The notes under the pieces: generated by a model
Databases searched by the model: none
What the model was told of the DNA's origin: nothing
What the model saw: only the letters and a program-made list of their open reading frames with translations
Source of the DNA: a virus
DNA: 20,869 bases
Strand: one strand, 5' to 3'
Virus record (IMG/VR): IMGVR_UViG_3300010883_000638
Span: 1-20,869 of that record
Program-made: the position numbers and the translations under genes
Shown here: one piece after another, positions 13,081-14,403 of the stretch
Layout of the letters: the number at the start of each line of letters is the position of its first letter
How positions within the stretch are numbered: position 1 is the stretch's first letter

Positions 13081-13377
13081 TTATGTTGAAAAAATTTGCA
13101 TGTTTAATCTATACCTTCCCCTAACAGTAGTAGTTAGTATCAAACCTCTTTTTTTAAGAGAGCTGATGTGTTTGTCTAATGTCACAGGTGATATCTCAAG
13201 CTTATTCATGATACGTTCTTTATGTACTTTATCTGCATACCAAATATGATTTTCCATATCAGTCTGTCTTAATATATAATACAAGACATGGAAAGTTCTG
13301 TCCTTAGACTTTAGTAAAATACTTTCTTTTGTATCTAAATAAACTGTTATCACTTTTCTTTTTCTTCGTTTAAACAT
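13081..13377 (-). CDS. Winged-helix transcription regulator or RepL-like protein (98 aa)
   Basis: First gene of the leftward block. A very basic N-terminus (FKRRKRKVI) is followed by a winged helix: HKERIMNKLEISPVTLDKHI is helix-turn-helix, and SSLKKRGLILTTTVRGRYRL with NMQIFS is recognition helix end plus wing. The pattern fits RepL-type and MarR-like winged helices of phages and plasmids. The start is GTG 13380 or ATG 13377; ATG is preferred because it is the standard codon and keeps more leader. It is transcribed from the promoter at 13414-13445, which carries the palindromic sites described separately, so autoregulation by this protein is the simplest model. Origin binding is an alternative. 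Confidence 0.78.
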   Translation of the reverse strand: MFKRRKRKVITVYLDTKESILLKSKDRTFHVLYYILRQTDMENHIWYADKVHKERIMNKLEISPVTLDKHISSLKKRGLILTTTVRGRYRLNMQIFST

Positions 13378-13395
13378 CACAAATATATAATTTTA

Positions 13396-13410
13396 TATCA
13401 ATAATTGATA
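13396..13410. promoter_or_regulatory. Operator-like palindrome at the leftward start site
   Basis: TATCAATAATTGATA is a perfect inverted repeat with 6-base arms and a 3-base centre, continuing rightward as TGATAGT. It lies where the leftward transcript from the promoter at 13414-13445 should start, so a bound protein would block initiation. It shares the TGATAGT half-site with the other copies in this region. Confidence 0.6.
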
Positions 13411-13445
13411 GTACAAATATAAAAAAGTTTAGTTACTGTTACAAA
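13406..13445 (-). promoter_or_regulatory. Leftward promoter of the virion/packaging block
   Basis: On the minus strand TTTG (complement of 13442-13445), a 20-base spacer and TATATTTG (complement of 13414-13421) match the Bacteroidota housekeeping promoter (TTTG at -33, TAnnTTTG at -7). Transcription should start near 13406-13408, giving a leader of about 30 bases before the winged-helix gene. The -33 TTTG lies inside the palindrome at 13435-13454, and another palindrome overlaps the start. Confidence 0.68.
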
Positions 13446-13454
13446 TATGATAGT
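13435..13454. promoter_or_regulatory. Operator copy, ACTGTTA-N6-TGATAGT
   Basis: ACTGTTACAAATATGATAGT. The arms are imperfectly complementary (differences are transitions). The centre CAAATA gives TTTG on the minus strand, used as the -33 element of the leftward promoter. Same pattern as 13700-13719 and 13747-13766. Confidence 0.7.
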
Positions 13455-13459
13455 AATAA

Positions 13460-13476
13460 TATCAAAAAATGATAGT
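13460..13476. promoter_or_regulatory. Operator copy, TATCA-N5-TGATAGT variant
   Basis: TATCA and TGATA form a perfect inverted repeat around five A, extended on the right to TGATAGT. It lies just upstream of the leftward promoter. Confidence 0.5.
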
Positions 13477-13494
13477 AAGCCTTTGTTTTACTGC

Positions 13495-13526
13495 AAAAAA
13501 AACCCTCCTAATTTCTTAGAAGGGTT
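13495..13526 (-). terminator. Rho-independent terminator, leftward, inside the control region
   Basis: AACCCTCCTAA (13501-13511) and TTAGAAGGGTT (13516-13526) form an 11-bp stem with one mismatch and a 4-base loop. On the minus strand eight T follow (complement of 13495-13502). There is no T-run on the plus side, so it acts on leftward transcripts. It insulates the leftward operon promoter at 13414-13445 from anything started further right. Confidence 0.85.
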
Positions 13527-13610
13527 CAACCACTATAAACTAAACATTATGAATAAATCGCTACCAGGTATAACAAGAAATAAAAACACTGGATAGCTTC
13601 ATAACTATAG
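13527..13610 (-). ncRNA. Candidate short leftward RNA in the divergent control region
   Basis: A TATATTTG box (complement of 13614-13621) predicts a leftward start near 13607, and the terminator at 13495-13526 would end the transcript at about 110 bases. A further promoter at 13679-13710 would give about 175 bases. Inside, GCTACCAG (13560-13567) pairs with CTGGATAGC (13589-13597) with one bulged base, a stem of 8 bp. No convincing protein is encoded on the minus strand (only a 13-codon frame). The RNA is inferred from promoter, stem and terminator together. Confidence 0.4.
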
Positions 13611-13671
13611 CAACAAATATATAAATATTTATGTATAAGATTTACAAAATAAAAAAAATTATTATTTTTCT

Positions 13672-13710
13672 TGCATAATTAAAATAGTTTACAGGGCTTA
13701 CTGTTACAAA
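13672..13710 (-). promoter_or_regulatory. Second leftward promoter overlapping an operator copy
   Basis: Minus-strand TTTG (complement of 13707-13710), a 20-base spacer, then TATTTTAA (complement of 13679-13686) matching six of eight positions of TAnnTTTG in length and TA...TT core. The geometry is identical to the main leftward promoter, with TTTG again inside the palindrome. Transcripts would stop at the terminator at 13495-13526. Confidence 0.42.
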
Positions 13711-13719
13711 CATGATAGT
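13700..13719. promoter_or_regulatory. Operator copy, ACTGTTA-N6-TGATAGT
   Basis: ACTGTTACAAACATGATAGT, followed at 13723-13729 by a further ACTATCA half-site. Identical to the copy at 13435 except for one base in the centre. Confidence 0.7.
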
Positions 13720-13746
13720 CAGACTATCAGACGGTGTTAGGTCAGT

Positions 13747-13766
13747 ACTGTTACAAACGTGATAGT
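13747..13766. promoter_or_regulatory. Operator copy, ACTGTTA-N6-TGATAGT
   Basis: ACTGTTACAAACGTGATAGT. A degenerate sixth copy follows at 13777-13789 (CAAACG then TAACAGT, left arm lost). No -7 box lies at the 20-base spacing here, so these sites may serve binding only. Confidence 0.68.
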
Positions 13767-13777
13767 ATTAGCCAACC

Positions 13778-13799
13778 AAACGTAACAGTACGTTTTTTT
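13778..13799 (+). terminator. Short rightward hairpin with T-run (weak)
   Basis: AAACGT (13778-13783) and ACGTTT (13790-13795) form a 6-bp stem with loop AACAGT, followed by T to 13799. It could stop stray rightward transcripts ahead of the early promoter. The short stem makes this uncertain; it also contains an operator half-site. Confidence 0.3.
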
Positions 13800-13834
13800 A
13801 CAATATCTTTAACGCCAGGCAGTTAGCTATAATT

Positions 13835-13854
13835 ACTATCATAAACATAACAGT
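13835..13854. promoter_or_regulatory. Operator copy in inverted arrangement, upstream of the rightward genes
   Basis: ACTATCATAAACATAACAGT: the arms are exchanged relative to the other copies (ACTATCA ... TAACAGT) while the centre keeps the same A-rich orientation. It is the copy nearest the rightward genes, about 40 bases before a possible -7 box. Confidence 0.6.
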
Positions 13855-13896
13855 AATTTTAATATAAGGTAAAACCTTTAGGTTATACATTTTACT

Positions 13897-14278: not shown

Positions 14279-14323
14279 TATTTTTATAATATTTTTTTTA
14301 TAATATTTTTTGTGCGTGTTTAA

Positions 14324-14387
14324 ATGGAGACCAGCAAAAGCAACGACCCTAGCTAAAACTTGAGCGGGGTAATACTGCCCCTCTCAA
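14324..14387 (+). promoter_or_regulatory. Leader with mini-ORF and hairpin before the 80-aa gene
   Basis: A 10-codon frame METSKSNDPS (14324-14356) is followed after three bases by a hairpin: TTGAG-C-GGGG (14360-14369) pairs with CCCC-T-CTCAA (14378-14387), nine pairs plus one C-T mismatch and an 8-base loop. The hairpin ends 16 bases before the ATG at 14404 and is not followed by a T-run, so it is more likely a translation or stability element than a terminator. The leader is GC-richer than its surroundings. Confidence 0.5.
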
Positions 14388-14403
14388 ATTTAAAATTTAT
14401 ATT

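Follow-up and report, generated by a model that had tools for sequence, protein, structure and literature searches.

Locus and gene blocks

The window, by which we mean the whole stretch of DNA analysed (20,869 bp), is an entire IMG/VR record that covers part of a crAss-like phage genome. The TerL that it encodes shares 36% identity at 95% coverage with that of Cellulophaga phage phi14:2, whose record is classified as Crassvirales; Steigviridae, and the window has the related terminase, the portal and the block organisation of the Crassvirales, the two opposed gene blocks being found in the relative L011. Genes left of ~13.4 kb run leftward and form a virion-side block (terminase, portal and further virion-side genes), and those right of ~13.9 kb run rightward and form an early/replication block that includes a family A DNA polymerase. 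The leftward virion operon opens with an ORF for a 98-aa winged-helix protein, here called WH (13081..13377, minus strand). Between the blocks lies an array of palindromic sites, and its position at their border agrees with an earlier note on this DNA. In L011 (IMGVR_UViG_3300046167_000815), a 79-kb relative, genes diverge only at the equivalent intergenic region, and the gene blocks converge at 53 kb.

Expression of crAss001 and phi14:2 follows an early/middle/late programme in which a virion RNA polymerase reads the early genes, and host RNA polymerase has been suggested for the middle and late genes (PMC8375218). The authors of the crAss001 study also proposed that both blocks are under the control of DNA-binding proteins at the divide (PMC6235969).

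Palindromic sites between the blocks

The array of operator-like sites is genuine. Four 22-bp palindromes, starting at 13434, 13699, 13746 and 13834, fit the pattern TACTRTYA-N6-TRAYAGTA, and their strict 20-bp cores (ACTRTYA-N6-TRAYAGT) start at 13435, 13700, 13747 and 13835, where the earlier note had placed them. The strict palindrome is found four times in the whole window, each time in the array, against a chance expectation of 0.007 (0.0004 per intergenic region) derived from sequence of equal dinucleotide content. From left to right, these copies are site B (13434..13455; TACTGTTA-CAAATA-TGATAGTA), which contains the -33 element of the WH promoter; S3 (13699..13720); S2 (13746..13767), 47 bp from S3; and S1 (13834..13855), in which the arms are exchanged and whose distance from S2 is 88 bp in clade-1 relatives.

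A repeat search showed that sites A (13459..13477), upstream of B, and C (13395..13413), over the predicted transcription start, have the form TATCA-N5-TGATAGTA. The copies previously listed at 13396 and 13460 are real, but they differ from the strict sites in having a centre of 5 bp rather than 6 and one truncated arm; both are kept in clade-1 relatives. The element near 13777 is, as had been proposed, a half-site. This half-site, H (13771..13790), lies 23 bp from S2 and consists of the arm TAACAGTA at 13783-13790, the second arm being replaced by GCCAACC, which reads GGTTGGC on the minus strand and is itself kept in most relatives. Among 20 distinct sites three half-sites swap with one another (ACTATCA 23 times, ACTGTTA 13 and ACTATTA 4), as would be expected if a dimer binds each arm.

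Relatives were fetched from IMG/VR by the WH gene, giving 14 and then 33 loci, and by the terminase, giving 18 loci. More than 20 related contigs carry the array, the order of the sites is identical in every close relative, and relatives with the same gene order retain the sites beside the WH gene, which answers the motif search of related phage genomes that the earlier note had proposed. It is very likely that these are operators bound by protein, adjoining the WH gene. A genome-wide regulon was also considered and rejected, because the sites of L011 are confined to this region and occur nowhere else in its genome. Neither the array, its protein family, the fusion of operator and promoter nor the concerted operator switch reported below is described in the literature on crAss-like promoters, origins and operators that we searched.

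A promoter built into site B

The primary sigma factor of Bacteroidetes (sigma-ABfr) has the consensus TTTG at -33 and TAnnTTTG at -7 (PMC6847099, PMC7366714). Over both strands of the window together, TTTG-N19-21-TAnnTTTG occurs once, as TTTG-N20-TATATTTG at 13445-13414: the -33 TTTG (13442..13445, minus strand) is the centre of site B, and the -7 box TATATTTG (13414..13421, minus strand) lies 20 bp away, so that both sigma-ABfr elements are present at a distance of ~20 bp. The spacing claimed earlier for this copy is thus correct. The TTTG is kept in the centre of B in 27/27 loci listed, and TTTG-N19/20-[TGA]ATATTTG precedes the WH gene in 26 of these 27; the exception, L018, keeps the TTTG and has TATATCTTTTG as its -7 box. 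Many relatives of clades 2 and 3 have the -7 box GATATTTG, one letter off the consensus. In all clade-1 relatives the core of B starts at -77 from the WH start codon, and the promoter arrangement persists even where a cargo gene lies between the WH promoter and the main cluster (L062, L069, L071-L073, L076, L077 and L032). In the Flavobacterium johnsoniae (F. johnsoniae) consensus the final G of the -7 box stands at -5 (PMC6847099), and transcription is accordingly predicted to start at about 13409, inside site C.

The earlier note had gone further, taking the -33 element to belong to the site in general, so that every site would be an operator with a built-in -33 and several leftward promoters would fire from the array. 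We regard this as very improbable. The centres of S3 and S2 do read TTTG in the window, but they do so in only 6/22 (S3) and 3/22 (S2) relatives, and the box 20 bp from the TTTG at 13700 is TATTTTAA, with 4/6 consensus letters. The window has a single consensus promoter. The idea of operator and leftward promoter as one unit holds, and is conserved, at site B; at 13700 and 13747 the TTTG is not conserved, and the -33 element is conserved solely at the WH gene's own promoter. Nor does the centre always keep its orientation: it does so in the window's copy at 13835, but it is reversed to AAAC in whole clades at the equivalent of 13700 (L015/L016/L019, L061/L078 and L062/L069/L072). A search of the window for a rightward consensus -33/-7 promoter next to the early genes found none.

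Since B covers the -33 element and C the predicted start, the layout would be that of repression. The palindromes overlap the promoter of the putative regulator itself and are conserved with its gene, as in an autoregulatory array, and autorepression through A, B and C is, on the sequence evidence, the best-supported functional step of the model that we propose.

A second copy of TATATTTG lies at 13380-13395, two to three bases before the WH ATG, in nearly all relatives. It stands too near the WH ATG to serve it at the normal distance; in L079-L085 the distance would suit a leaderless message whose first base is the A of the ATG.

The winged-helix protein

WH is the likely binder of the array. 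It has a basic N-terminal arm, and its AlphaFold2 model (pLDDT 89.6) shows the element order of a winged helix. Fold comparison gave generic winged-helix matches only, none with E <= 0.001, and the matches to Pfam were weak HTH hits below the cut-offs. The best PHROG match is also weak (phrog_678, 'replication initiation O-like', E 0.0019), and the homologue in L076 matches RP-C with E 0.0084. Homologues are present at 33 IMG/VR loci. No credible relative was found in 50,697 phage records, in PDB sequences or in 84,980 bacterial and archaeal species genomes, so there is no annotated homologue from which a function could be borrowed.

The distant homologues (L028, L036 and L079-L085) are without the basic N-terminal arm. 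Several of the distant loci have another palindrome, e.g. TTATAATAACTA...TAGTTATTATAA, ahead of the -7 box, and L079, L084 and L085 have a gene of ~172 aa directly upstream of the WH gene.

Concerted change of operators

In L032, L034 and L077, both S2 and S3 have switched to TACTATACCT...TATAGTA palindromes with the geometry unchanged. Within these genomes S2 and S3 are alike at 20, 19 and 22 of 22 bases (L032, L034 and L077), compared with a mean of 11.8 between classes, and in L032 the switched motif is found at this locus only. As the sites change jointly and the spacing is kept, we infer that one protein binds them and that it forms a complex whose geometry matters. The recognition helix of WH has changed from PVTLDKHI/PPTLDKHI to TPALDKHI/VPALDKHI/TPGLDKHI in L032, L034 and L077. 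Helix and operator changes are seen together in a single clade, and their coincidence could therefore be due to shared descent. Concerted operator change at constant spacing nevertheless offers a natural series for the study of regulator-site coevolution.

These data also bear on whether the array is bound by some other protein, be it a host factor or a further regulator of the phage, the WH gene being merely a neighbour. Further small genes of unknown function lie nearby, and the gene directly upstream of WH in L079, L084 and L085 could encode such a binder. We nevertheless hold this to be improbable, since the sites travel with the WH gene in the clades that have them, even across intervening genes, and the clade with the changed recognition helix is also the one with altered operator letters. 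Nor would a host factor obviously explain why the sites are confined to one phage locus.

The upstream cluster

The main cluster has a constant layout: H with its GGTTGGC, 23 bp, S2, 47-48 bp, S3. This spacing is constant in 22/22 relatives tabulated, where the search for the S2-S3 distance was limited to 46-49 bp; an unrestricted pattern search again gave 47 or 48 bp wherever both sites matched. Adjoining S3 is the conserved element F (13670..13695, minus strand; CCTGTAAAC-TATTTTAATTATGCAAG), which runs into very AT-rich DNA. Rigid spacing together with an AT-rich flank favours an assembled complex at the cluster.

Three readings of the S1-S3 cluster are live: a distant operator working with the promoter-proximal sites, a titration device, or a replication origin. 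An origin had been named in the earlier note as the main alternative, and because of the rigid spacing it is a stronger candidate for this cluster than was then allowed. S1-H-S2-S3 and the AT-rich stretch by S3 would form the origin, and WH would be an initiator that is also an autorepressor. Besides the rigid 23 and 47/48 bp spacing and the conserved element F and AT-rich DNA adjoining S3, such a role would suit the presence of one cluster copy per genome at the divergent point and the match of WH to the O-like phrog_678; in addition, a scan of ten replication-block proteins returned helicase, primase and ligase matches and no recognised initiator. The PHROG match, however, is weak, other winged-helix families match too, and WH is without a second domain for helicase loading. 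The sites are palindromic with exchanged arms, regularly spaced but not tandem direct repeats, and the GC-skew minimum, which is confounded with gene direction and does not discriminate between the readings, lies 0.4-1.8 kb off on the early side (window 15,477; L011 75,096; L032 80,417). On balance we think an origin possible but doubtful, at roughly one chance in four.

A version that joins the two functions is somewhat less likely still. In it, one 98-aa WH protein would build a replication (or repressor-titrating) complex on the cluster and would repress the late promoter through the operator that contains the -33 element. If this were true, genome copy number itself would release virion gene expression in a crAss-like phage.

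Other elements around the locus

Between the two operator groups lies a candidate small RNA of ~110 nt (13493-13621, minus strand). It has a TATATTTG box at 13621-13614, a stem supported by compensatory changes (three pairs changed on both sides, six sequences) and an intrinsic terminator near 13502-13526. It has no Rfam match, and no Rfam family matched anywhere in the window.

A variable cargo slot occurs between the main cluster and the WH promoter, and its content differs among relatives (L062:1932-2891, L069:2345-2737, L076:1284-2060, L077:2138-2917 and L032 genome 81008-81814). It may hold a 319-aa gene whose product looks secreted, a gene of 130 aa or one for a 258- to 268-aa protein, the last of which looks, by eye, like a 3'-5' exonuclease.

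Element E (13863..13884), on the early-gene side, is a short inverted repeat, AACCTTTAGGTT (13873-13884), with TATAAGGT alongside. The window and the L011 genome each contain its exact form once. The loop has 2-4 bases and the stem letters covary across clades, e.g. AACCTT-GTT-AAGGTT, AAATCT-TAT-AGATTT and ACCTAC-TGT-GTAGGT; the element could be the hairpin of an early promoter for the virion RNA polymerase. Before the first early gene there is also a conserved leader (window ~14320-14400; L015:1291, L019:2431, L030:4490 and L032 genome 80639, on minus strands) with the pattern GGTTACYA...ACCC(C)TACTAAA...GGGG-N-CCCC; in relatives a run of at least six C often comes before it. The leader looks like a structured RNA.

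A model for the array

The reading that we favour, and consider probable, is that the array is a two-part operator set of the adjacent WH protein, which would repress its own gene and build a complex at the cluster. Part 1 (A, B and C; 13395-13477) would be the autoregulatory promoter. WH bound at B, over the -33 element, and at C, over the start, would block host RNA polymerase at a promoter that serves the WH gene and the virion operon behind it. At part 2 (S1, H, S2 and S3; 13699-13855) WH would build a larger complex of fixed geometry at the divergent point. Most likely, part 2 would act with part 1, by cooperating with it, by looping or by titrating the repressor as the genome copy number increases, and the combined action would set the timing of leftward late transcription relative to the rightward early block.

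Several points count against this model. In clades 2 and 3 the promoter-proximal sites (TACTATAAAATTTGTATAGTA) are unlike those of the main cluster in their own genome, so that one protein would need to accept both forms. The centre is 5 bp in A and C compared with 6 bp in B and the S sites. Finally, autorepression by itself leaves the exact spacing of the distant cluster unexplained.

The passage from early to late expression and the start of replication in crAss-like phages are not established in the literature that we searched. A single 480-bp locus and one small protein, conserved in many environmental relatives, would provide a handle on both questions.

Comparison with known systems

Arrays in which operators serve the regulator encoded next to them are already known. 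The nearest phages for comparison, crAss001 and phi14:2, likewise have two opposed blocks with DNA-binding proteins near the divide (PMC6235969). No comparable array was found in phi14:2, where there is only a chance-like site match with one mismatch and no similar repeats in the divide, and WH has no homologue among the phage records searched.

The model can also be set beside other known systems. Iteron-type origins with an autorepressing winged-helix Rep are found in R6K, P1 and F, and lambda O with its ori is comparable for the binding part. Sites near the gene and a separate phased cluster by AT-rich DNA, a winged-helix binder (here predicted) and an operator at the binder's own promoter are common to these systems and the present locus. 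The differences are that the sites here are palindromes rather than direct repeats, that the protein is a single domain of 98 aa and that the skew minimum lies off the cluster.

The OR/OL regions of lambda-type phages are operators of an autoregulated repressor in divergent control regions. They resemble the present array in that a number of interchangeable palindromic operators lie between divergent blocks, with one over the promoter of the regulator, and in the adjacency of the regulator gene. The regulators differ, being a short, phage-specific winged-helix protein here and the helix-turn-helix proteins CI and Cro in lambda. Unlike lambda, the locus described here also combines a Bacteroidetes -33/-7 promoter inside a palindrome with a distant cluster of fixed 23/47-48 bp geometry.
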